Below are positions 20,497-40,711 of a stretch of DNA of 45,047 bases, in pieces (the stretch's first letter is position 1; each line of letters starts with the position of its first letter). The notes beneath the pieces are model-generated. The model was not told the DNA's origin. It saw nothing but the letters and a program-made list of their open reading frames with translations, and did no database searches. Position numbers and translations under genes: made by a program. The stretch lies in IMG/VR virus record IMGVR_UViG_3300031339_000014, positions 1 through 45,047 of that record; one strand, written 5' to 3'. This stretch comes from a virus.

Positions 20497-23400
20497 TCAA
20501 ACATCCCCGAAATACATCGCCACCGCGCGCTTGGTGATCTCGTCCATCAACAACGCCGCCGTCCCCACCAACGCAGGGGAGTTCACGATGCGGTCATCGA
20601 TGGACTTGTACCCAAAGATCGCGTCGATCTCATCGCCGTCCTCAGTGAGGATAGGCTCGTCTATGACATCCCGTATGACTGTTTTTAGCTGGTGCATAAA
20701 AATTAGCTTCTATTTTGTCCAGTGTGGGTACGACCCCACACCCGGTGCGATACCTGGCACCCGCCCGTACTCTCGCACGGGTACAGACCATATCTTCACC
20801 CCTCACATCGTGAGTAGGGTGCTCCCCATTTTGCCGACGCTCTGCGCCAGCTACACCGTGGTTAGCGGTTGGCCGTTGAACCTTCTCCGTATCTCGTCTC
20901 ACGACGATACGTAGGAGCTTGGCTGCGGATTGCCCATCTATCACATCTCTTTGTTACCGTACCCAGGGAGTTAGTCTGGCCACCGGTGCCTTTCGCACAC
21001 CGGCTTGGTAGAGATGGCTTTAGGGAATTCCCGTCAATTAAAGGAGGATCATTGCATCTTTACAGACACAACGGACTGAGGTATAACGACACCCCGATCA
21101 CCTACACCCGCAGGCTCTGGGCCTGTGATGTAAAACTTCAAGACAGCTGTGTTGGGCGATAGCTCTTTGCCTGCCACTCTCATAGAGTTATCGACACTTC
21201 CCGACTGTACTTTTTGCTGCTTTGCCTTGGCCAGTGTCTTAATGCGCTTGTCAGATGTTTTAGCCAGAGCTTGCAGCGTCGAGGACATGTCTTCTAACTC
21301 ACCGTTGTACAACACCTCAATGCGCTCCAGCACTCCGGACCCTTTTACCTTAGGCGCTTTAGAAGCGATCTTTTTGAGCGTGTCAAGGGCGGCCTCAGAC
21401 AAGTCCCCGCCGGCAGCAGCGGTAGGCTCTTCCAATAGACACAGCACATCGTCGTAGTCTACGGTTGCTCCTATCTTTTGCGGGTTACGCACCACGGTTT
21501 CAAAGTCCACTACGACTTGCCGCAGCTTAGTGGTGGTGGACTCCATGCGCGCCGCCATCGATGCAGAGATAGCCGAACTGTCTTCCAGCGTATCGGGAGA
21601 CTCCCACAGCACGGTCTTTGCTTGGGTTGTGGTCTTTAACAACACCTGACCGGGCTCCATGGGGTCGAGATCAAAGTACGCGGTGTTGTACGACAACACA
21701 TCCCCGACTTTCACAGACTGACCCACTTTAAGTGGGGTAATCAGCTGATGTGGGAACATCTGTTCCGAGGAAGGACCCGTACCGTAACGTCGCCCTATCT
21801 CAATCGCCTGCTTAGTACCGTCCTTATATTGCACCTCCAACACCGAGTCGGTGACCGAGATAACCTTACCGGGTTGCTTGGCGGTCTGAGCAAACAGATC
21901 GCTGGTGCGGTGAGCAATGACTTGCTCCATCCCCGTGCGCACTGTGGTCGGCGTGTAGTCTTTAGCCGCAATGCTTGACCCGTACTGAATACTGATAAAA
22001 TTGCTTATTGTCCGCTTTGATCGCGTATCAAAGCCGGTGCGAGTCCTAGCACCCGCCTACAGTTACCTGTAGGAACAGACCATCTCATCTCCCTCTGTGC
22101 ACCTAGATGCGATCAGATAGGGAGCTTCCCGTTTCCATTTAATCCAGAATGACGAGGTGATTACCCCCGACTGGAACCCCATATCGCTTGGGCTGTACTC
22201 TACTCGCTTTAGTGTGTGTTACACACCACCTGACTTTACACAGGTGTCACTCCGCCTTTTCAGGCCGCAGCTTTCGATGGCCGTTGAACACACTCTCTTT
22301 TAGGGAGAGCTTCGTAACGGATTGTCTTCTTAGTGAAGAGATTCCCGTTTTAGGGAAGTTATGCAACCGGACTCACGTCCAGAAGGCGCCTATTGTTGAC
22401 GCGCTTTATATCGTCCCTATCTGAAGACGGTGACAACAATGTCGACGTACTGAAGTAATTCGCTGGACCATCGGCGTCCGTCCTAGGGCGCGTGGTGCCT
22501 CGTACCGAGGTAAAGTTCGGATCCGCTGATAAGTAGATGGTGGAACCTACTTTCCCAGAGTCCACGGTGGCCTCCGATATCACGCCCAAATCGCTGTGGT
22601 GATAATGACGAGTACGCTCCACCATGGAGCGTGTGCTGCGTCCGCCTACGCCACTGAACGTTACGTCCTCGTTTTCGCGAAGTTGTGAGACGGGGTTGTT
22701 GCCTTTACTTAGGTTGATCGACGGATCCCCCAGTATGCTGTACCACACCGCCTCCGGGTTCATCTCAAACTTGGCTTTGCGAGTGTTAGGGTTCATGGCG
22801 TACCCCCGCGCTGCCCGCACCAGTTCTTGATACACCGCCCCGGTCATACGCTCATACCCGCGGATGCGTTGGTAGTTGAGGTCGTTCTCCTGTGGGTGGT
22901 CATCGGTGAGCAGCAGCTCATTGGCTAGGTACAACAAGCCCCGAAACGTCTCAGGCTCATTACGATCTTGCAGTATGCCTAAGGTAATCGGATCCACAAA
23001 CATTTTGTCCATCAGATCCAGCTCTCGGGCGTACCTTACGCCCAAGCCCACTTCTTCCAGCAAGTTCTTGTAGATGTCTTTCTTTTCAAACTCCCTGGAT
23101 GAATAGCGCTGCACTAGGCGTTTGTATTGGTTGTAGCCGTTAAGCAACAGCGCCGCTTCGGTGTCTTCCCGTGAGAAGATGTAGGACTCATTGGCAAAAC
23201 GAATGGCGTACTCATGCGGTTGTAACTGCATCTTTTCGCCTGAAGCCACAATCCTGGGGGTGACGTTCAGTGAACGGTACAACCCCTTAAAGCCGAGTGT
23301 ATACCCCAAAGCCACACCCAACGCAATGGATTTACCAAACAGTTTGATCTCAGCCACATCCACAGGCGCCGCTGACAGATCAATCCCCGCCAGCTCTTCA

Positions 23401-25451
23401 ATGGTACCCAGCTCCTCCGGTGCCCGGTCTGTGTGGCGGTACAACGTACTGGCCGCATCGCTCATTTGCATAAGGACATAGTCCCCTGCTTTCTTGCCCA
23501 CGATGACCCAGCCCGACACCTCTATCTTCGCCAAATCGTCTTTGTACAGACGCACCACCTCTTCGCGGTCGAAATAAAGAGCCACACCCCCCAGCGATAC
23601 CCGGGACATCTTTTTGGCCAAGGTACTGTACACCCTAGGCAGCTTGGCCTCGCTGCGAAATACATTGCCCAACTTAAGGCCTTTGATGCGCGTATCCGCA
23701 TCGTCCAGCCCCACACCGATTACCGCTTTGGTCAACCAGGCGCCGTAGTCATAAGCCACTTTGGATGAGCGCTCTACAAAGCACTTGCCGTAGTAAGACG
23801 TTAGAGCCACTTTGTCAGGGGCGGTTTTACGGATGGGGAGGTCGCCACGTTGCCAGCGCATGTACTGTGTAATGCCGTTGACTTTGAACGTGCCGTCTGG
23901 GTTGATCACGGGCAGCTTAAAGCGCACCGTGGAGGGCGACCCTGTCAGGGGCTGCAGGCGCACTGTGTGAGCCTCGTAGGCGCCCCCAGCGTCCTCGTGT
24001 CGTTCTATGTCGTAGTCTGTGACCGATGCACCCATGCGTTGCAGGGACAGTACGTGGTTGGTGATGTCCTTTTGCATGACTTTATCGACGTACTGATTGC
24101 GCACGGTATTGATGGACGAAGTGCGCATGGAATCGTCTGGCACTCCGGTGGTTTTGTCCATCAATGTCTCGGTTTCTATCGCCAGATCCTCCGGAGTGAT
24201 CTTAGCAAAGACGTCCAGCGGTTCCTTAGTCAGCGGGTGCTTGACCGCGCGGTATGTGGTCGAGAGTTTTTTTGCACGGCGGTATTCAGCGCCGGACATC
24301 CGACCCGCCTCCACCAGCCCGTCTGCCACGTTCATGAACGCCTGTTCAGGCTCGGGGTCGGTGGCTTGCCGAATAGTCTGTACGGTGGGAGCAATGGCGG
24401 TATTTGCCGCGGGGACTTCCTCTAGTCCATCCAGATCGTCTTCGTCTTTCTCAGCGACGGCGTCCTTCTGACCGACCCGGCGCCTAGGGACGCTTGCACC
24501 CTCCTCATCGGCGTCATCCTCGTCTTCTTCATCCACGACGTTGTCGTCGCCGTCTTGCTTGGCCAGGTATGTTGCCGCGTCTTTTGTTGATACGCCACCA
24601 CGACCCGCTTCTTGCAGGGTCATCAGAAGCGCCAAAAAGCGCTTACGCACGCCGGTGACGTCCCGCTCTTTGTCGTCTCCTTCCACTTCGTACGTAAACC
24701 CTTTAAGGGTCCCTAACGATATTGAAAACCACCGATCCTGGTAGCGCCAGATCATGTTGACCCGACCCCAGTACTCTTTGGGTATACGGTCGTACACCGA
24801 CTGATCCGATTCTGGATCCAACATCAGGTACGCGTCCATGACGTTGAGCGCCTCAGGCGTATCAAAGGTCTTCATGGCGTCAGTGGTCCAACCTTCTTTA
24901 GCCACCTTGCGCATGGCCGACAACGTCGGCAGTACATCCGGTACCTCAATCCGCAAAAACTGCGTACGGTCCGTGGTCTTTAAATGATCCAGCATCTCCA
25001 GCATCAGCGTGTTGTGGAGGTTGATCCAGCTTTGGTACGTGGTGCGGTACGTGCGGGTGTACAGGTAATGATGCTGTATGGGGGCGTAGTTGACCACGAG
25101 CAAGGATTTGTCATCCCGCACTGAGGTCTCGCGCTTCTTGGAGCGGCGCAGCAGCCGATGACGGCGGTGAAACGCCTTGACGTCCCGGTCTTCGTTGAAC
25201 GGCAACTCCCGCATCCGCCCCTCGGTCGGCTCACGATAGCGGTGTACGTGTTCCACGTAGATGTTCCGGTCCACTTCGGTCAGTAAAGGGTCGGATGCAT
25301 CCGGGCCGGTGACGGTCTCAGACTCGGGTAAGTAATGAAACGTCGCCCCACGGGGCAACTGCATCGCCATCATGTCGAAGTGTTTGTCGGTGGTCATCTC
25401 TGCAAACTTACGCACCTGAAACTGTCGGTGGTACAAATCCATCCGAATCAT
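20497..25451 (-). CDS. RNA polymerase beta subunit, N-terminal major part, three exons
   Basis: Exons on the minus strand are 25451-22399, 22003-21097 and 20709-20497. They join in frame to 1390 aa; ATG 25451 overlaps the beta-prime stop as ATGA. RpoB landmarks: GTFKVNGITQYMRW (about 515-530, lobe), NNPVSQL through DLGVISEA (918-961, the NPLSELTHKRR to RLCPIETPEG segment), DDIKRVNFISIQ (1013-1024), VRTGMEQ (1039-1045), LEDSSAIS (1157-1164, the FEDSILVS motif), and GDKLIFMHQLK (1319-1329, both NTP/RNA-contacting lysines). An acidic linker at about 300-345 is phage-specific. The protein stops 70 residues after the GDK region; the missing C-terminus is encoded at 40722-41378. Read unspliced, it looks like three broken ORFs. 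The likely role is the virion or late phage polymerase. Confidence 0.9.
20710..21096 (-). ncRNA. Group I intron A in beta (387 nt)
   Basis: The intron separates GGTGAT from AAGCTAATT so the exons read GVGD|KLIFMHQLK. On the minus strand the group I core is present: Q element AATCCGCAGCC (plus 20921-20931), R element GTTCAACGGCC (20871-20881) and S element AAGATATGGTCTG (20784-20796), which pair to make P7. The 5' exon ends in T (U.G pair with GUC in AGTCCGT, 21071-21077); the intron ends in G. P9-type hairpins follow the S element. No homing endonuclease ORF fits. The core closely resembles intron C. Confidence 0.92.
22004..22398 (-). ncRNA. Group I intron B in beta (395 nt)
   Basis: The intron interrupts the codon GT|C so that the joined exons read DDIKRV-NFISIQ, exactly the expected conserved beta sequence. 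P1 forms between exon GCGT and intron GCGC. A hairpin GGAC-GTGA-GTCC follows as P2. Core elements on the minus strand: GACAATCCGTTACG (22313-22326), GTTCAACGGCC (22279-22289) and a divergent S, AGATGAGATGGTCTG (22076-22090). The 3' end GGACAATAAG|C parallels intron A. The core is the most diverged of the three. No endonuclease ORF is present. Confidence 0.9.
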
Positions 25452-27418
25452 AGGGGTTCACCTGTTAAATTGTTGAGCACCAGTTCGATGGTGTCCGTCG
25501 AGGTACTCGCCCGGAACCCACCGCGTGGGTCGACGTAGGTGTTGATGTTGCCTAGGAGATCGTTGATCTCTTTTAGGCCGTTGTTGGTGTACACAATGTC
25601 GGCACTGCACGTATCGCCGTCGAACGTTGCCTTCGCCTAGGACGCAAACCCTAGACCGCCTCTCCAGGAGGCTGCCCCGGCTCTCACCAGGGAACGAGAC
25701 CATATCTTCACCCTACTAGGTAGGGGCTCTCCACTTCGGACCGCCTAAGCTTGCGTGTCCTACTCCGTGCTACCGGATGGCCGTTGAACCTTATCCCTAT
25801 CCTGCCGTCGCGGCAGTACGTAGGATCTTGGCTGCTGATTTTCTCTACTTCTTGCTTGTCAAACCGTGACCGCGTGCTTTCGCCGAGGCAGTGGTGCAAG
25901 AATCTAACGAGATCTTCCAGCAATTCAAAGAGTAACGTCACCTTCGTTACCAAAGGGACGGACTGTGTGGGTAAAGTACCCACGTTTATCAGCGTCGAGA
26001 CCGGCTAGGCGCGTGGTGTCAGGCACCAACGCGTCCATAAAGGCCATGCCCGGTAAAGGATACTCACGTGCGACGTGAGTATCCTGCAACTGCCATCGCG
26101 CGTCGTACTCCAGCAGTCGTTTGGTTTTGGTGGTGGTGTGGGTGTAGAACCTTGTCGGGTACGTAGACTCTGACCCCGTTACGGGAAATCGCGTTACGTA
26201 CCCCCCAAATTCATACCACTTCTGATACTGACACAGATAACACACTTCAACCAACGAGATGGGGCGTACGTTGTCTCGCGAGAACTCGTCTGGCAGGTCG
26301 TCGATGTCGTCAAACACCCGAAAACCTTTGTCGTCTTGATACACTAAAAAGGCGTAATGATCCCCAAGCATCACAGGGCGATGACGCACCGCCGCGTCTT
26401 TGAACCGATTGATGAGTTTTTCCACGCCTTCGCTGGTGGTCCAGGCGTCTATGTCGGCGGTGTCCAGCGTTACCGACTCAGGCTTCCACGTCATTCGATT
26501 CACCACTGTCACGTTGCCTTCTTGTGTACTGAACCTGGATGCCATGAACGTACGCAGAGCGTACTTGGTAATTGGCAATGTACCTTTCATAATTTGAAAC
26601 AGACCGATGCCGGTGTCCGTCACTGACGCCAGGTTATCGGCGTCTAAGGATTCACGTACGGCGTTCTTGGACGCGATAACGTTCCGCGTGCCGTTGAAGA
26701 TGCTGCGACTGGCCCACTTGGACAACATAAACCCACTTTTACCGTCCAGCAGATCTTTGATGTACGCGTAAATATCGTTGAGGGTGTTTTGGAGTGTCTT
26801 CCGGGTAGCGTCCTGGGCAGACGTCTCGCCGTCTTTGCCAATGAGATTCGCCACACCGATCACACGGGCGTATTTCTTATTGATCTCGTCTTTCTTTACC
26901 CGGCCGGTGCCATCGTCTTCGATGTCCCGCAGCCCCGCAGGCAGTACCAGCAGGTAGCGTATAAGGGCGCGATCCATGTTTTTCTGGATGAGGAGGATGC
27001 GATCATCACGCTCCGCAGACCCCGTGCGCTTAAATTTAATATCCGCCATGTGTTTGATAAAGAACGCATAACCGGTTTGACCGTCGAGCTCGTTAGACCG
27101 CACAAAGTCTTTTTCTTTCGCGTCCCAATCGGCGTAGTCCGTACCCTCAAGAATGCCTTTGTACAGACCTTTTAGCTTGCTGTACGCATCGTACAGGATC
27201 GGATGTAAGATACGCGTGTTCATGTCAATGTAAGCAAACTGCTCCGTTCGGCGATCCTCCCCCTTACGGCCAAAGAACTCCGTGGAGAACAATCCTTCCG
27301 GATGAAGGTTGTCCGTCGCACCATCGGTAATGTCCAGTACGGTAATTTGAGGAACACCCTGCAGGCTGCGTTTGTCCACTTGTAAAATTTCTAAGTTAAA
27401 CGGTGGCTTCTTAGCCAT
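25448..27418 (-). CDS. RNA polymerase beta-prime subunit, N-terminal part, two exons
   Basis: Exons 27418-25988 and 25624-25448 join to 535 aa. The N-terminus has GLFSTEFFG (beta-prime GLFCxxIFG). An LPAGLRDIE...KYARVIGVANLI segment corresponds to the RpoC VLPPDLRP...YRRVINRNNR region, and SKWASRSIFNGTRNVI to the GKRVDYSGRSVI segment. The catalytic loop reads LDADFDGDT (474-482), with D477-F478 joined across intron C, carrying the Mg-binding Asp triad. The protein then ends about 55 residues later, so the rest of beta-prime is encoded elsewhere and was not found here. ATG 27418 has GGAG nine bases upstream. The unspliced frame would run 20 codons into the intron and stop. Confidence 0.9.
25625..25987 (-). 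ncRNA. Group I intron C in beta-prime, inside the DFDGD motif (363 nt)
   Basis: It splits GAC-GCT-GAT | TTC-GAC-GGC-GAT, that is, D|FDGD of the polymerase active site. Core elements on the minus strand: AATCAGCAGCC (25830-25840), GTTCAACGGCC (25779-25789), AAGATATGGTCTC (25696-25708). A hairpin GTGGGT/ACCCAC lies just inside the 5' end (25967-25983), followed by AGTCCGT (25958-25964), which can pair with exon GAT through the conserved U.G. The same AGTCCGT block is in intron A. No endonuclease ORF is present. Confidence 0.93.
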
Positions 27419-27482: not shown

Positions 27483-30400
27483 ATGGCTGAAAAAGATGAT
27501 ATTGAGTTAGACGATTTTGATCTCGACGAGTTCGACTTCGACGAGTTTAACATGGATCCGGCGGATGCGGTGGACGACCGCAAACCCACTACGGTTATAA
27601 AAGACAGTGCTATAGAGGGATTTCGCGGATCGCTCACTGACGAAAACGTTGTTCGGCGTGCCCTTGAGAAGTCGTTACCAAAAGAGTACGAATCCACCTT
27701 TGAGGCATTGGACGCCGCCGGTGACACCAAAGACAAAATAAAAGACGCAATGGAACCTGTGGCCAAACAGGCTAAACAGGTAGCTCGGCAGAACAAGGCG
27801 TTGTTGTCCAGGTTTCTGCCAAAGAAGATGGCGGAGAAACTGGAAGGCTGGTCTCAGAACGAGGATGAGAGTGGTGGGTATGAAACCATTGACCCACGCG
27901 CGGCTGAGGTCGGTGCATCCCTGGCAGACATATTTCGACTGAATCAAGAAAAAGACACGGAAACACGATCAGCCGATCAAGACAGCGATACCGAACGTTT
28001 CGCCATAAAGGAAGAGGCGGAAACCAAGCGCCACATGTCCCAAGTGGAGGTTCTTGAGGCCATACGATCAGGCATCTCTCGGCAAACTGACTATCAAGAC
28101 CAGGTCCTGACCAAGTATCAGCAAAAACACCTGGAATTGACTTACCGTCAGTTGTACACGTTTCAAGACATCTTGGATCTGAACAAGCGCCAAGCCGAAT
28201 CCGATAACAAATCCCTAGCTGAGATTGTTAAAAACACCGGATTGCCTGAGACGCAAAAGATCAAAGCGTTCGAAGAAGCCAAACGCGAAGTTCAAGCCGA
28301 CCTTCGTCGTGAGGCCGTAGAAGGCGCCGCGGGGTACGTCAAGGGCGTTGGCGGAAAGATGATCGGTAACACTATCAACACCGTAAAGGATCGTTTAACG
28401 ACCGCGCTGTCCACGATTCAAGAAACGATGGGCGTCACGGACGGAATGGACGAATCTCCACTTGGCATGATTGGTAACATGCTAGGCTCCAGCGGTGGCC
28501 AAGCTGCCATGGAAAAGGGCATCGCCGCCGCGTTAAAGAAACTGGGTCAGGATGCAGACGAGTCTAACGTAAAAAGGATGGGCGCCAGAATGGCGCTTAT
28601 GCTACAAGAAGCCCCCGAGAAGCTTTTGTCATGGACAGCTTCAACGTCGGGCCGTGGCGGGCTGATAGGGTTCTTTGAAAACTTTGTTAAGGATCAAGTG
28701 CCCTCGTTCAGTCGTGTAGGCAACATTGACATCGAGCAGATTGCCGACGCCGACGAAGCAGCCACGTTCACCAATCGCGTTGCCCGAGCGATCACCGATG
28801 TGATCCCTGGGTATCTGTCCATGCAGCTGCAGCAACTGAGACTTCTGGTCTCAGGCGGTGAGCCGGTTGGCAAAATCGAGTACAACCCTGAAACGGGGCA
28901 GTTCGGAGCGGCGGAAGACAAAGCCAAAACGGTTGAAGATCGTCTGTTTGGCGGCGCATCTGAAAAATACCAGCGCAACATGAAAGAGGCAACCGATGGG
29001 CTCCTAGGGGGCGCTGAGGTCACGGACGACCAACGTAAAGAACTTGAGAACTTCCTGTACGACCAGTTTTCAAAAGGAAAGACGGCGCTGATTAGTGAAT
29101 TGCCTGCCGCTATCAGTCGGTCCGAGTACGTCCAAGAGGACAACAAGAAAATCCTGTCGGACATTTTGACTAAAAACGTCTACGATAGCACGGGTAAGCA
29201 TTACCAGAGCGCTACGGTCCAAAACACCACCCGTAAAACGTACGGCAAAGTAGGAGATCTAAGAGAGAGCCTACCTTACGTCAAGGAAACATTGGATCAG
29301 ATGATCAGCGCAGGGTACCGCGACGATCTGGTCAAAATGGGCCTCATTGACGTTAAAGGCAAAATAGATCACGACGTCGTCGCTGAACACTTAAGCGGTC
29401 GGCCCATCTCAAAAAGGAGAGAAGATGGCACATTTAAGACTCGTGTGGCGTCTGGGGATCGTGACGTTGCTGATGGCGATCGCGTGGTTGTACCTCGTGT
29501 TCAAAACCCCCGTGCAGATATGGAAGAGCGAGGAAGAACTTCGCACGGGGAAGCCCTCAGCGAAAAACCCCCCACGTCAGAAACCTCCTCGGAAATAGAC
29601 GAAATACTGCGACTTATTGCGGAGGAAGTTTCCGAAGCGGGCAAAGTCACGGTATTGCGTTTGTCTCAGTTAGTAGAGGGTCAGTCCACCCAGATCGAAA
29701 AACTGGACGCTCTAATACTCGGGTTAGCCACCCCTAGAGCCCAAACCCAAATGGCCGATTCCGGACAAATGGACACCCTCCGTCAAGCTATAGAGGACTG
29801 CTGCGTTAAGGACGAAGCGGCCGAGCAAATCGAATTGCTGCGGCAAATCCTAGCCATCATTCCTGAATCGGCTGCCTTAGGCGGTGCGCCGACCGAAGGC
29901 AGTAAGCCTATCCTTAAAAGCATCGCCGATCGTGTGGGCAAAGTGGCTAAGGGATCCAGTGACATTCTACAATCGTACTTTAAAGGCGCTTTTGGTGTCA
30001 TGGGTAAGGTAGTAGAGACAGGTGGCCAACTGGCTCAACCGCTGGCACAAGGTGCGGGCAGCTTGTTAAAGTCAGTCGGTAAACGCCTGACGCAAGGCAA
30101 AGCCGAAGCCGAAGCGCTCTATGTCAAAGGACGTGCGAGCATTGCTATCCACATGAGCAAGTTGCGTGCGGGTGAATACATTGATGGGTTGACGGGTGAG
30201 ACTCTGTGGTCCCTGGAAGATCTGAAGGCCTGCAAAGGCGACATCCAAAACAAAGCAGGCGAAGTGGTCCTGACCGTGGAGGAGTTGGCTAAGGGTTTGT
30301 ACGACAAACACGGCAAAGGGATCATCATCAAAGCCGCGGGTTTCCTTAAATCCTACTACTCGATGTTGTGGGGTGGCGGTAAGACGTTGTTAGGCTTTAT

Positions 30401-33400
30401 ACCCCCAACCGTGAGGGCGGCGACAGGATTTGCCAAAGGGATCTTGATGCGTCAGCAGGACATCTACGTCAAAGGCGAGGGCACGCCGCGCATCCTCGCC
30501 AACCTTTTGCAGCGTGGCCATTATCGGTCACAAACCACGGGTAAATCCATCTACACCTACGATGACATTGATGGCTCTATCATTGACCCGGACGATCGGG
30601 TCGTGCTGTCCATGGAGGAGTTGGAGAAAGTGGTGGGCAAAGACGGTAAACCTATCCGGTCGCTCACTGAAAAAGGCGTGGAGCTGGTCAAGGCGTATTA
30701 CGGCGCGTTGTGGGGCGTTACTAAAGGCGTGGGTCGGTTTGTGGGTGGGTTAGCCACCGGCATCAAAGATCGCATTGCAGGTAAAAGCGAGCGTGAGGGT
30801 AGTGGCGGTGCTATGGATGAGGAGCAATCTGAGCGTACCTGGACGTACTGGGACGAGCAGTTGGCTATTCTCCGTCGCATCGACACGCGTTTCACCGGAG
30901 GTCCTCCTGCCACTGAGGCGGGCTCTGCTGGTCCCATCGGTCCTATGGGCACTAATGCCACGTTGGCATCAGACTCCGATGGTTACACCGCCCCACTGGG
31001 TCCACAGGCCCCCTCAGGGCCTGCCACACCCAGGGCCTTAGTGGCGACGCTACCGCCTCGTATCGCGGGAGGCCCATCTGAGCCTGAGGCGGGCGAGACA
31101 GCCCCCGTGGGTCCTACAGGGCCTACTGGAACTGATGCCTTGACTTCGCCCGCCCCCGATGTCTATGCCGCCCCACAGGGTCTTAAAGACACTGTGGGGG
31201 ATGCAGGTGCAGATCAATCGGCCACACTCAGGACCTTGACGTCACCACCTCAGGGCGGCGATGGCACAAGGGGTCCTGGTGTACCCCCCGACTCACTAGG
31301 TCCACAGACCCCTTCGGGACTTGCCACACCCAGAGCCTTAGTGTCGCCACCTCAGGGCGGCTACGCCGCCGACACACCGCTTGTAGGTCCTGCAGGGCCC
31401 ATGAGCCCTAATGCCTCACCGGTCTCAGACCCAGATGATTATACCGCACCACAGAGGTTTATAGGGCCTGCGGGGGATGTAGATGTAGGCCAACCTGCCA
31501 CACCCAGAGCCTTAGTGTCGCCACCTCAGGGCGGCTACGCCGCCCCACAGGAGCCCGAGGCCTCCAATGAAACCTCCGACGACAAAGAACCGAACCTAGG
31601 TGCACCGTCTAAAGCCCCTTCCCAGGGCGACGGAAACCTCCTAGGCGGTGTCGCCGGTAAGCTCACAGGGGCGGTGGGGTCGTTGAAAGACACGTTCTCC
31701 AACTACTTCTCCAAATCGGGAGAGAATGAGGAAGAACACAATCGGGACCGTGACCAACAAACCGGCATACTGACCAACCTGACCTCCGCCACGAAAGAAC
31801 GAGGCGATAAGCTGGACGACCTTCAGCAAAGTCAACTCGACTCTCAGGCCCAAATGACCAAGACGCTGAAAGGTATCGAGGAGAATACGGAAAAGGATGA
31901 GCTGCGTGAAGGCGGTTGGCGTGAGAGAATGGCAGCACGTAAAGCCAAAAGCTCAGGCGAGGGTGAGGAGGAAGGTGAAGACGACGAGCCTCAGTTAGGA
32001 GAAGCCTCCAAGACCCTAGGGTACGAAAAGAAATCCATGGCGGATGTTTTGTTCGGGCCGTTAGGGGGTATCGTTGAAAAGTTCGGCGAGTACATGGGGG
32101 TGTTCAAAGGCGCCATTGCTGGATTAACAGGTTGGATGGCCGCCAAGTTGTTTGGCGGAGCGGCTACGTCGGCTGCGGACGCCGCAGGCGATCTGGCCGG
32201 TGGGGGTCCTAGGCGTGGCCGTGGTGTCATGTCTCGTCTATGGGGCGGTGTTAAAAACGTGGCCAAGAAAGGCGCCAGCCTGGCGGTAAGGGCAGCACCG
32301 TTGGTGTTACCGGCACTGGCCACAGCAGGCAGCGCCATCGCCACCGGCGCCGTGGCAGTGGGCGGCGCTATCGCCACCGGCGCCGCAGCCGTGGGCAGCG
32401 TACTGGCGTCGCCCATCGTACTCACCGCCGCTGCAGTGGCTGTGGTGGCGTACGGCGGGTACAAGTTGTATCAGTACGCCAGCCGCTACACGCCCAAAGT
32501 CCTAGACAGGTTGAGGTACGCGCACTACGGGTTAAACATCGACTCCGAGACAAACCGGACGCTGGTGATGTCCCTAGAAGCGTACCTGGACGACAACGTC
32601 TCCTGGAACAACGGCACGCCACAGATAACCCCTGACCCGAAGGACGATACTTTAGCAAAAATCCTAGGCCTGACGGGTGAGAATTCAGAGATGGATCCTC
32701 AGCTTTCTGGGATGTGGTTCCGAGATCGGTTCTTACCTACATGGGCTGCGCACCGTGCTATACTGCACAACGTCTACGACGATAGAGTGCCACTCAACGA
32801 GGTAGACGATCTAGAGCTGCATCAAAAGAAAGCGTTCCTGAGCAGTCTGTCGGGCGCCGTGTCTAACGCGGCGCTGAACATCATGAGTGGTCCTTACAAG
32901 GAAAAACCCCTGGAGTTCAACGCAGAGCAAGCCCGTGCCATGCACATGTGGGCGGTGGATGAGCTGGAGAAAGCAAAAGCGCCCGGTGTTAAAATACCGA
33001 CGCGTGGCGCGACCACCGTGGGCAAAAAGCCTGGGATAGACGATAAAGCCTCGTCCGCTTCGGCCAGTACTTTCCCAGAATACGACGACAACGGCAACAT
33101 CACCCGCACACCGGGCGGCAATCGAAACGGTATTGTGGGCACACCCCGCAGCAGTGGAGGCGCGTCTGGGTCATCCTGGGGTGGCTTTACAGCGAAAGAG
33201 TTAAAAAACTCGACCGCATCCAGTAAAGCCAACACCAAGTACATCCTAAGCATCAAACGCCACAAGCAATCGTCACAATCCACCATCTCAGACGCGGCAC
33301 TGATTGATAAAGGCACCGGGCACAAAGTACTGGAGTTCAAATTCCTAGAACGCCCAGGACCCGATACCAAAGAACCCAATCAAAGACAGCGCATACCGGA

Positions 33401-34568
33401 GGGCAGCTACAAACTAAAATGGCAGACTGCCACCGGCATCGCCGGTGTGCGTCCGCATTTACCCGTACCTTGGTTGTACGGCAACGGTGTGTCGGACGAT
33501 CGATACATTTACATTCATAACGGCAACTATCCTAGTCAAACCGACGGGTGTTTGCTGTGCGGAAAAGACGATGCACCGAACATGGTGACCAGTTCTGTGG
33601 ACACATTGGAGCGCTTGAAAACCGAGCTGCTGGCGATCGGGATTGAAAACGTCACAGTGGAGGTTTCCTCTGCCTACGCCGGTGGGCAGAAAGCCCCCAA
33701 GACCACAGAGCCTGCCATCGCTGAGGCGGCTAAGGCCGGCACCGCCGCCAGTGTGGCGGGTAACGGTGTGGAGTGGTCTGGTGAGCAGACTGCCATGAGA
33801 GCCATGGCGTACCAGCCAGGGCTACCTGAGGACGGGCGGGGTGAATCCCCCATCGATAGGCCTGGGAAGGCCTCAGACCGCGAGCAGGAGGCTTTGTCTA
33901 GGATCCCCGAGGATTGGGTCACTAAGGAAGACATCGCCACTGTGGACGCCTCACTGGCCGCACAGCACCCCGACAAATCGTCGCGAGAGATCCGTACCCT
34001 AAAGGACATAGAGCTCACGCGTCTGACCAACCAGCGGAAGAACGATTGGTTGAGTGAGAACGGTGTGTCAGTGACCGCTGCAAAGGCGGGGGGTGCCGTG
34101 GCGGATGCCACGTCAGTCGGTAAACCTAAAGTCCGTAGCTACGGACCTGTTCAGGAAACCATGGCCTCGGCGGTATACCGCCCGGAGGCGCCTGCTTTAG
34201 CTGAGAAGCCCAAGCGGGTGATGGCCACGGGTGTGGACGTGGAATCCGATGTTCAGGAGACGCGCGAAGCAGAGCGTCTCGCACAGTCTCAGAACGACCA
34301 ACGTGAGCAGTCTAACTTGACACAGCGCGTCGATAAAGAACGCCGTCAGCAACGCGAGTCGGTGTCTAGAATCGAATCGGTGTTAGGGGAGCAGCTGAGC
34401 ACGCAACGTCACATGAGCGACAACCTGGACAAGTTGGTCTTGTTCGCGGAAAGTAAGTTCCAACAAGACACCAACAAATCCCCGGCAGAGTATCTGGTAA
34501 AACGAGGATACCGACCCCCACAAGGAAGGAAAGAAGCGTTTAAGCCGATCGTGGATTTGTCAAGTTAG
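27483..34568 (+). CDS. Giant virion protein, 2361 aa, with DUF5675-like domain
   Basis: Divergent from beta-prime; GAGG lies seven bases before ATG 27483. Regions: an acidic start with D/E/F repeats (1-30); helical, coiled-coil-like segments (150-650); a tandem duplication at about 860-1090 (two copies of an xYVKG...GKxI...LVKAYY-type unit); a collagen-like Gly-Pro linker (1139-1360) with repeated ATPRALVSPPQGGYAA; an Ala/Val-rich hydrophobic segment (about 1600-1660) that may span a membrane; and a DUF5675-type domain (about 1920-2065) with PEGSYKL, IHNGN and TDGCLLCG, giving a His...Cys pair like YkuD-type enzymes. In phiKZ the gene in this place (gp181) is a large tail lytic protein; no SLT domain was seen. 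A tail/inner-virion cell-wall role is inferred. Confidence 0.85.
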   Translation: MAEKDDIELDDFDLDEFDFDEFNMDPADAVDDRKPTTVIKDSAIEGFRGSLTDENVVRRALEKSLPKEYESTFEALDAAGDTKDKIKDAMEPVAKQAKQVARQNKALLSRFLPKKMAEKLEGWSQNEDESGGYETIDPRAAEVGASLADIFRLNQEKDTETRSADQDSDTERFAIKEEAETKRHMSQVEVLEAIRSGISRQTDYQDQVLTKYQQKHLELTYRQLYTFQDILDLNKRQAESDNKSLAEIVKNTGLPETQKIKAFEEAKREVQADLRREAVEGAAGYVKGVGGKMIGNTINTVKDRLTTALSTIQETMGVTDGMDESPLGMIGNMLGSSGGQAAMEKGIAAALKKLGQDADESNVKRMGARMALMLQEAPEKLLSWTASTSGRGGLIGFFENFVKDQVPSFSRVGNIDIEQIADADEAATFTNRVARAITDVIPGYLSMQLQQLRLLVSGGEPVGKIEYNPETGQFGAAEDKAKTVEDRLFGGASEKYQRNMKEATDGLLGGAEVTDDQRKELENFLYDQFSKGKTALISELPAAISRSEYVQEDNKKILSDILTKNVYDSTGKHYQSATVQNTTRKTYGKVGDLRESLPYVKETLDQMISAGYRDDLVKMGLIDVKGKIDHDVVAEHLSGRPISKRREDGTFKTRVASGDRDVADGDRVVVPRVQNPRADMEERGRTSHGEALSEKPPTSETSSEIDEILRLIAEEVSEAGKVTVLRLSQLVEGQSTQIEKLDALILGLATPRAQTQMADSGQMDTLRQAIEDCCVKDEAAEQIELLRQILAIIPESAALGGAPTEGSKPILKSIADRVGKVAKGSSDILQSYFKGAFGVMGKVVETGGQLAQPLAQGAGSLLKSVGKRLTQGKAEAEALYVKGRASIAIHMSKLRAGEYIDGLTGETLWSLEDLKACKGDIQNKAGEVVLTVEELAKGLYDKHGKGIIIKAAGFLKSYYSMLWGGGKTLLGFIPPTVRAATGFAKGILMRQQDIYVKGEGTPRILANLLQRGHYRSQTTGKSIYTYDDIDGSIIDPDDRVVLSMEELEKVVGKDGKPIRSLTEKGVELVKAYYGALWGVTKGVGRFVGGLATGIKDRIAGKSEREGSGGAMDEEQSERTWTYWDEQLAILRRIDTRFTGGPPATEAGSAGPIGPMGTNATLASDSDGYTAPLGPQAPSGPATPRALVATLPPRIAGGPSEPEAGETAPVGPTGPTGTDALTSPAPDVYAAPQGLKDTVGDAGADQSATLRTLTSPPQGGDGTRGPGVPPDSLGPQTPSGLATPRALVSPPQGGYAADTPLVGPAGPMSPNASPVSDPDDYTAPQRFIGPAGDVDVGQPATPRALVSPPQGGYAAPQEPEASNETSDDKEPNLGAPSKAPSQGDGNLLGGVAGKLTGAVGSLKDTFSNYFSKSGENEEEHNRDRDQQTGILTNLTSATKERGDKLDDLQQSQLDSQAQMTKTLKGIEENTEKDELREGGWRERMAARKAKSSGEGEEEGEDDEPQLGEASKTLGYEKKSMADVLFGPLGGIVEKFGEYMGVFKGAIAGLTGWMAAKLFGGAATSAADAAGDLAGGGPRRGRGVMSRLWGGVKNVAKKGASLAVRAAPLVLPALATAGSAIATGAVAVGGAIATGAAAVGSVLASPIVLTAAAVAVVAYGGYKLYQYASRYTPKVLDRLRYAHYGLNIDSETNRTLVMSLEAYLDDNVSWNNGTPQITPDPKDDTLAKILGLTGENSEMDPQLSGMWFRDRFLPTWAAHRAILHNVYDDRVPLNEVDDLELHQKKAFLSSLSGAVSNAALNIMSGPYKEKPLEFNAEQARAMHMWAVDELEKAKAPGVKIPTRGATTVGKKPGIDDKASSASASTFPEYDDNGNITRTPGGNRNGIVGTPRSSGGASGSSWGGFTAKELKNSTASSKANTKYILSIKRHKQSSQSTISDAALIDKGTGHKVLEFKFLERPGPDTKEPNQRQRIPEGSYKLKWQTATGIAGVRPHLPVPWLYGNGVSDDRYIYIHNGNYPSQTDGCLLCGKDDAPNMVTSSVDTLERLKTELLAIGIENVTVEVSSAYAGGQKAPKTTEPAIAEAAKAGTAASVAGNGVEWSGEQTAMRAMAYQPGLPEDGRGESPIDRPGKASDREQEALSRIPEDWVTKEDIATVDASLAAQHPDKSSREIRTLKDIELTRLTNQRKNDWLSENGVSVTAAKAGGAVADATSVGKPKVRSYGPVQETMASAVYRPEAPALAEKPKRVMATGVDVESDVQETREAERLAQSQNDQREQSNLTQRVDKERRQQRESVSRIESVLGEQLSTQRHMSDNLDKLVLFAESKFQQDTNKSPAEYLVKRGYRPPQGRKEAFKPIVDLSS
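29425..29598 (+). CDS. Overprinted membrane peptide gene, 57 aa (candidate)
   Basis: In the +1 frame inside the 2361-aa gene, AAGGAG (29414-29419) sits five bases before ATG 29425. The product starts MAHLRLVWRLG, continues into a hydrophobic helix IVTLLMAIAWLYLVF (about 12-26) after two arginines, and ends in a Lys/Pro-rich tail (PSAKNPPRQKPPRK). A single N-terminal membrane span with a basic tail could be an inner-membrane peptide or a spanin- or holin-like factor. The large frame is rather low-complexity here. A chance frame is possible; the strong ribosome binding site plus a membrane segment argue otherwise. Confidence 0.5.
   Translation: MAHLRLVWRLGIVTLLMAIAWLYLVFKTPVQIWKSEEELRTGKPSAKNPPRQKPPRK
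31322..31544 (+). repeat. Two 49-bp direct repeats in the collagen-like linker
   Basis: Copies at 31322-31370 and 31496-31544 are identical over 49 bases and both encode ATPRALVSPPQGGYAA. A related, diverged copy (CCACACCCAGGGCCTTAGTGG) begins near 31023. The linker also carries GPxGP triplets. The identity between copies suggests recent duplication or gene conversion. Confidence 0.85.
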
Positions 34569-40004: not shown

Positions 40005-40711
40005 AGCAACTGTGTGTACTCTGAGATCGGTAAGAACCCCAACATCAGGTGCGCACTCATGTACAACTCCCATTGAGCAAAGGCCTCTTCCCGATGGGAG
40101 AGGCCTAGCTCCTTTATGTCCGCATCGGTGGGCAACCGGTTGCAGTACAGTGAAGGGGCGTTGATAGGGAACGACGGTATGGGGTGTTCTTCCAGTGCAG
40201 TGTGGTTTGCGGTTAACCACCGGTCTAAGTCATACAGGGCATAATAGTGATACGAGACCATTAAGGTCTCGGGCGTCAATGCCTCTGGGGATAAATAGAC
40301 CATCTCTACAATAAAGTCTTTAGAGATTACATCCTTGACCGACTCTTTGTACGCCTGACGTACCTCGTCTTCTAATTTGTACGGGTAGGTATTCACAACG
40401 ACTTTTAAGTCGGTCATAAAGCCTTGCTTAGATCGCACTGCCATGAGGTTGTACGTCATGGCCTTTAGGCGCACCATCATGGATGAGGCCAAGGAACACT
40501 TCAACACCTCAATGTCCCGTGACGCCCACCAGTCCCTATAGTCTTCGGGTGTGACGTTGTCACACAACTCCCATAAATTGTCAGTCAGACGGCCACGATA
40601 GGCGTCCATGTCCATCGCTGCGGCGTCTTTTGCGCGGTGGTGTATCAGACACCCTAGACGCGTGTCTAGCAACGCGTCTAGGTCAATTAACAGATGCTGG
40701 CGGGTAATCAT
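40001..40711 (-). CDS. Unknown protein, 236 aa
   Basis: GAAGG lies about eight bases before ATG 40711. The protein is helical with many Leu, Tyr and Met, no signal peptide and no membrane span. It is located ten bases after the C-terminal beta gene, so it is probably in the same operon. Its stop overlaps that of the convergent 139-aa gene. No family is recognised. Confidence 0.75.
   Translation of the reverse strand: MITRQHLLIDLDALLDTRLGCLIHHRAKDAAAMDMDAYRGRLTDNLWELCDNVTPEDYRDWWASRDIEVLKCSLASSMMVRLKAMTYNLMAVRSKQGFMTDLKVVVNTYPYKLEDEVRQAYKESVKDVISKDFIVEMVYLSPEALTPETLMVSYHYYALYDLDRWLTANHTALEEHPIPSFPINAPSLYCNRLPTDADIKELGLSHREEAFAQWELYMSAHLMLGFLPISEYTQLL

Follow-up and report, generated by a model that had tools for sequence, protein, structure and literature searches.

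The window analysed here is the whole 45,047-nt stretch of a virus record (IMG/VR IMGVR_UViG_3300031339_000014), and its source is a phiKZ-type jumbo phage. Within its giant tail (tape-measure/lysin) gene, referred to below as the host gene, lies a second, much shorter reading frame. The features at this locus are:

27483-34568, plus strand: host gene for a 2361-aa phiKZ gp181-type tail protein (virion-associated peptidoglycan hydrolase/tape measure), assigned from PHROG 3201, DUF5675 and synteny
33252-33626, plus strand: C-terminal DUF5675 domain, host protein aa 1924-2048 (Pfam PF18925, 53.9 bits against a cutoff of 26.7)
29414-29419, plus strand: Shine-Dalgarno sequence AAGGAG, 5 nt before the ATG of the inner frame
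29425-29598, plus strand: overprinted CDS of 57 aa, ATG to TAG, in the +1 frame of the host gene, kept in the nearest relative (L002/L014) and assigned from codon-position and simulation tests
29440-29499, plus strand: predicted membrane helix, aa 6-25 of the inner protein (Kyte-Doolittle 2.06)
29500-29595, plus strand: polar, basic, Lys/Pro-rich C-terminal tail, aa 26-57 of the inner protein (net charge +6)

Residues 4-1120 of the host protein match PHROG 3201, ‘tail fiber protein’, with an E value of 1.7e-166. Virion RNA polymerase subunit genes neighbour the host gene on the opposite strand and a 662-aa gene lies downstream, an order that is the same around the gp181 genes of phiKZ, Goslar, SPN3US and the Pseudomonas aeruginosa phage pPa_SNUABM_DT01 (DT01 below). 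The profile match, together with the gene order (virion RNA polymerase genes on one side, the following tail gene on the other), assigns the host gene to the gp181 type. In a passage of PMC5418858, phiKZ gp181 is cited as a structural peptidoglycan hydrolase, and the 259-kDa gp239 of SPN3US has been named its tail tape measure (PMC5694885). The SPN3US gene syntenic to the host gene (7119 bp, 2372 aa) is probably that of gp239, because 2372 aa fits a mass of 259 kDa. Given its structural role, the host gene is presumably expressed late. The C-terminal domain is DUF5675 here (33252-33626), while other lysin domains are annotated in DT01, phiKZ and others, so the module appears to have been exchanged between phages. 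The window also carries three group I introns on its minus strand, at 20764-21088, 22056-22411 and 25677-25987 (Rfam RF00028, E values from 8e-16 to 7e-11), which lie within or next to the two genes for virion RNA polymerase. ORFs 22359-25451 and 21049-21942, separated by the intron at 22056-22411, correspond to positions 1-1056 and 1075-1361 of one beta-subunit family, and in Goslar an annotated group I intron likewise adjoins the RNA polymerase gene.

Translation of 29425-29598 gives the 57-aa inner protein MAHLRLVWRLGIVTLLMAIAWLYLVFKTPVQIWKSEEELRTGKPSAKNPPRQKPPRK. Its register is +1 relative to the host ORF at 27483-34568, as (29425-27483) mod 3 = 1; coordinates and register were recomputed and bear out the original prediction, which had described a 57-aa frame, +1 to the 2361-aa gene and with an optimally spaced AAGGAG. 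An open frame with a start codon and a ribosome-binding site therefore lies within another coding gene. The frame was found once in the 45,047-base virus record, and there is no alternative start upstream of its ATG, the open stretch beginning just 10 codons earlier. The predicted N-terminal membrane segment and basic Lys/Pro tail were also recovered, with a hydropathy peak at aa 6-25 and a net charge of +1 ahead of the hydrophobic segment and +6 behind it. AlphaFold2 models a single helix over aa 2-40 (mean pLDDT 72.5; 94 for aa 11-20), and the C-terminal tail is of low confidence and predicted to be disordered. The host frame had been described as low-complexity at this place, which is right only in part, as it is a fast-evolving polar linker.

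By itself the window sequence proves little: among 73 homologous genes scanned, +1 frames that are preceded by a Shine-Dalgarno sequence and hydrophobic at the N-terminus also arise at other places, roughly 0.2 of them per gp181 gene. This background rate is what favors regarding the inner frame as a chance open frame without function. Comparison with the nearest relative, IMGVR_UViG_3300035034_000949 (L002 = L014, here forming clade A with the window virus), bears directly on that reading. The relative keeps the inner frame at 55 aa, and the two inner proteins are 67% identical (77% over the first 43 aa); the host proteins are 73% identical over the whole gene and 48% within the overlap. In the overlap, each outer third position doubles as an inner second position; outer third positions have changed in 3 of 42 codons there versus 1143 of 2102 elsewhere (p = 2.5e-10). 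Where the outer residue is conserved, the codon is identical in all 22 cases within the overlap, compared with 689 of 1503 outside it. Counted by inner codon positions 1, 2 and 3, the changes number 9, 3 and 13. When third-position divergence was scanned in 45-codon windows along the host gene, the gene minimum (0.07) fell on the inner frame, against 0.27 for the next lowest region and a median of 0.53. We also simulated the pair by drawing the relative’s codons from the substitution pattern in the rest of the host gene: over 20,000 runs the simulated inner identity had a mean of 14.8 (SD 3.1, maximum 29) versus 33 of 48 observed, and a stop was gained in the inner frame in 80% of simulations. 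Selection thus acts on the inner frame beyond that on the outer frame, and the outer-frame synonymous-site conservation, proposed beforehand as a check, is strong and lies exactly over the inner frame.

Sampling was extended through a conserved host-motif search, which gave 73 viral loci, and a second motif search, which added L110-L114 and clade C. Clade B (L015-L020) has a hydrophobic +1 frame of 47-56 aa at the same host-gene linker, in host proteins 24-25% identical to that of the window (26% for L017). Its gene minimum of third-position divergence is again on the inner frame (0.24 versus a median of 0.51), and per-pair p values range from 0.03 to 9e-7 except for L018 versus L019, where the deficit is absent, probably because the overlap carries insertions and misaligns there. 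Simulated outer-frame evolution falls short of the inner identity for L016-L020 and L015-L020 as it does for the window pair. Clade C, with the inner protein consensus ‘QAK.ELRK..RM.II.VVSVLIV...L.K....P..LIEL’, shows a stronger signal than clade B: in two subsets the third-position divergence on the inner frame is 0.09 versus a median of 0.53 (lowest elsewhere 0.36) and 0.08 versus 0.39, and per-pair p values go down to 3.5e-14. In a search of all collected loci, the clade B and clade C profiles matched solely copies at this linker, the clade B profile reaching L017 with E values of 2.2e-4 (37-kb record) and 0.0046 (pooled search). A purine-rich Shine-Dalgarno-like sequence also precedes the inner starts in L014, L015-L020 (L017 included) and L110-L113; in clade C, 11 nt separate the GGAG from the ATG, a spacing above the ideal. 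The inner frame is conserved as protein-coding in three groups and at a fixed position in the host gene. The frame stays open in the nearest relative and in these further groups, and this, with the synonymous-site conservation, supports the claim of an overprinted small membrane protein within a giant structural gene.

Since any overlapping function reduces third-position change, the conservation could also stem from an element in the RNA or DNA of the host gene instead of a second protein. We regard this as very improbable: the changes track the codon structure of the inner frame, first positions of the outer frame change in the overlap at least as much as elsewhere, the frame is open from start to stop, and the membrane segment is kept in every carrier. 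A chance frame has next to no probability left, given the codon-position and simulation tests in three groups and the phylogenetic clustering of the carriers, and at the level of sequence conservation this reading is already refuted. The sequence evidence leads us to hold with high confidence that the inner frame is a selected and very probably translated overprinted gene for a predicted single-pass inner-membrane protein.

To place the carriers, a host tree was built from 131 host proteins using the part before the overlap (overlap left out). The inner frame is carried by 28 of the 131 rows in two blocks: clades A and B join in one of 12 rows (support 92), and the 16 rows of clade C form the other (support 100). 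The 28 carriers need 2 changes on this tree versus 25.7 for shuffled labels. Profile comparison of clade A with clade B (hhalign) gave no significant homology (E 0.055, probability 1%), and sequence comparison does not show the window protein to be homologous to those of clades B and C. Net positive charge follows the helix in clades A and B and precedes it in clade C, a hint at opposite topologies or independent origins. The carriers may go back to one old origin followed by losses, or the frame may have arisen twice. At the same linker, hydrophobic +1 frames were also seen at L023:8367-8525 (L023 with L013) and in L132 (about 172-262 codons after its VIPGY-type motif), in lineages near clade C; these may be carriers, each being without a near relative for the selection test.

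Most gp181 homologues, including those of phiKZ and Goslar, are without an inner frame at the linker. Among named phages, no counterpart was found there in gp181 of Goslar, phiKZ, KpGz_1, SURPRISE13, LucasX, pVp-JHP1101, pEa_SNUABM_8 or D6. Some of these genes have hydrophobic +1 frames elsewhere, which we left uncounted because Gly/Ala/Arg/Pro-rich host sequence reads as Val/Leu-rich in +1. GTDB genomes yielded three gp181-like loci only, none with the inner frame. Similarity searches in named phages gave chance matches only for the window peptide and no match for the clade B peptide. The clade C peptide found DT01 (MW735835.1; tblastn E 3e-5 over 100% of the query), where the inner frame, with its ATG at 86843 on the minus strand of the record, is unannotated inside the gp181-like gene PA10_00091, an example of how gene callers omit it. 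As a cultured P. aeruginosa phage carries the inner frame, its translation, membrane location and null phenotype are directly testable.

Family searches did not place the inner protein. Pfam, PHROG and PDB gave no match beyond noise; for known holin families there was no Pfam or PHROG match for the window protein or for those of L016, L017 and L018, and the clade C protein had only sub-threshold, non-holin matches. Because holins are diverse, this leaves holin-like action possible. An o-spanin of the Rz1 type was rejected, as the window protein contains no cysteine and hence no lipobox. A typical i-spanin of the Rz type was also rejected, only a 32-aa basic Lys/Pro tail without a coiled coil following the helix; no lipobox partner was found in the inner frame.

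Among possible mechanisms we tentatively rank first a late membrane or lysis-timing role. A small single-pass inner-membrane protein, overprinted at a variable linker of the gp181-type tail gene, would be translated by internal initiation from its own Shine-Dalgarno sequence on the late tail mRNA, would build up late in infection in the cytoplasmic membrane of the host cell, and may act there as a holin/antiholin-like or other lysis-timing factor. Lysis timing fits best because the product would be a late, small, single-helix inner-membrane protein. The original prediction had noted that overprinted small membrane proteins of phages often act in lysis or superinfection control, which would be a generic expectation for this class; our searches found no direct evidence for either role of the inner protein. 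Candidates for lysis functions occur elsewhere in the relatives. In the L020 genome (G007), a separate 77-aa ORF at 238489-238722 on the minus strand, with two predicted TM helices, a basic C-terminus and AGGAGGAGAAA upstream, is a holin-like candidate by hydropathy only. DT01 has an endolysin-like candidate at 45864-46589, a 71-aa ORF with two predicted helices at 40250-40465 (L187), and an i-spanin-like candidate (TM, coiled coil, Pro-rich tail) at 69116-69571 (L188), the latter two being possible unannotated lysis genes. The lysis inventory of both genomes used hydropathy only, and its entries are candidates, not identifications. With holin-, i-spanin- and endolysin-like candidates elsewhere, the lysis assignment of the inner protein is weakened and not forced.

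The position of the inner frame also directs attention to genome entry. Membrane proteins that act on injecting tape-measure proteins include HK97 gp15 and Ltp of TP-J34. SNIPE is another (PMC13190303), and with the SPN3US homologue called a tail tape measure (PMC5694885), an inhibitor encoded by the inner frame would be carried inside the gene of its own target. Superinfection exclusion, in which the inner protein would act on the tape-measure protein at the membrane and so keep out the genomes of like phages, is nevertheless rather unlikely, as the inner frame is on a presumably late mRNA and has no sequence relation to any exclusion family. Known exclusion proteins of lytic phages (T4 Imm, T5 Llp) are early genes, which we also count against it. 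Alternatively, the protein may be made beside the nascent tape-measure protein and join it in the tail or membrane, helping to form the DNA path across the inner membrane. That every carrier has the frame at one fixed place in the tape-measure gene, and that the helix is strongly conserved within clades, speaks for such a tail or ejection factor; as most gp181 homologues, including those of phiKZ and Goslar, are without the frame, the inner protein is not generally needed, and we consider this role unlikely. Position in a tape-measure gene, together with the known membrane proteins acting on injecting tape-measure proteins (PMC13190303), makes exclusion and ejection real alternatives to lysis timing. 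Taken as one proposal, that an overprinted inner-membrane family, sitting at one linker across a large set of phiKZ-type phages, acts on genome entry, as exclusion factor or tape-measure partner, is possible if doubtful; if true, the opposite charges of clades A/B and C would mean that the gene arose twice at the same place or that its topology turned over. Only a small share of our confidence goes to other functions of the inner protein.

In open-access text we found no report of an overprinted small envelope-protein gene in the gp181/tape-measure gene of phiKZ-type phages, which are studied for the phage nucleus and for therapy. The inner frame very likely adds a hidden, selected membrane protein to their late genes. 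It also offers a clean case of overlapping genes in a large dsDNA phage, and as genome compression is an unlikely reason, why the inner gene sits inside the tape-measure gene becomes testable.

Several known systems resemble parts of this arrangement. The phiKZ gp181 family (PHROG 3201) supplies the host gene, while the linker holds no second frame in phiKZ, Goslar and most homologues. HK97 gp15 is a small inner-membrane superinfection-exclusion protein that acts on the tape-measure protein; the inner protein is like this type in size class, predicted membrane location and positional link to the tape-measure protein, whereas the genes are separate there and there is no sequence match. Gene E of phiX174 lies inside gene D, and ssRNA phages have nested single-gene lysis genes. 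These too are overprinted single-helix membrane proteins inside a structural or other gene, though no sequence relation to the inner protein was found, and the need for a single lysis gene would not be expected in a large dsDNA phage. Overprinted genes for small envelope proteins are known, such as Rz1 in Rz, and are commonly missed by annotation (PMC6139136). Lambda Rz1, an embedded spanin, is likewise a small envelope gene with its own start that lies entirely within a larger phage gene, in register +1. It differs in being an outer-membrane lipoprotein nested in the gene of its partner i-spanin, whereas the inner protein of the window is without a lipobox, has an inner-membrane-type helix and is nested in the gene of a tail protein.
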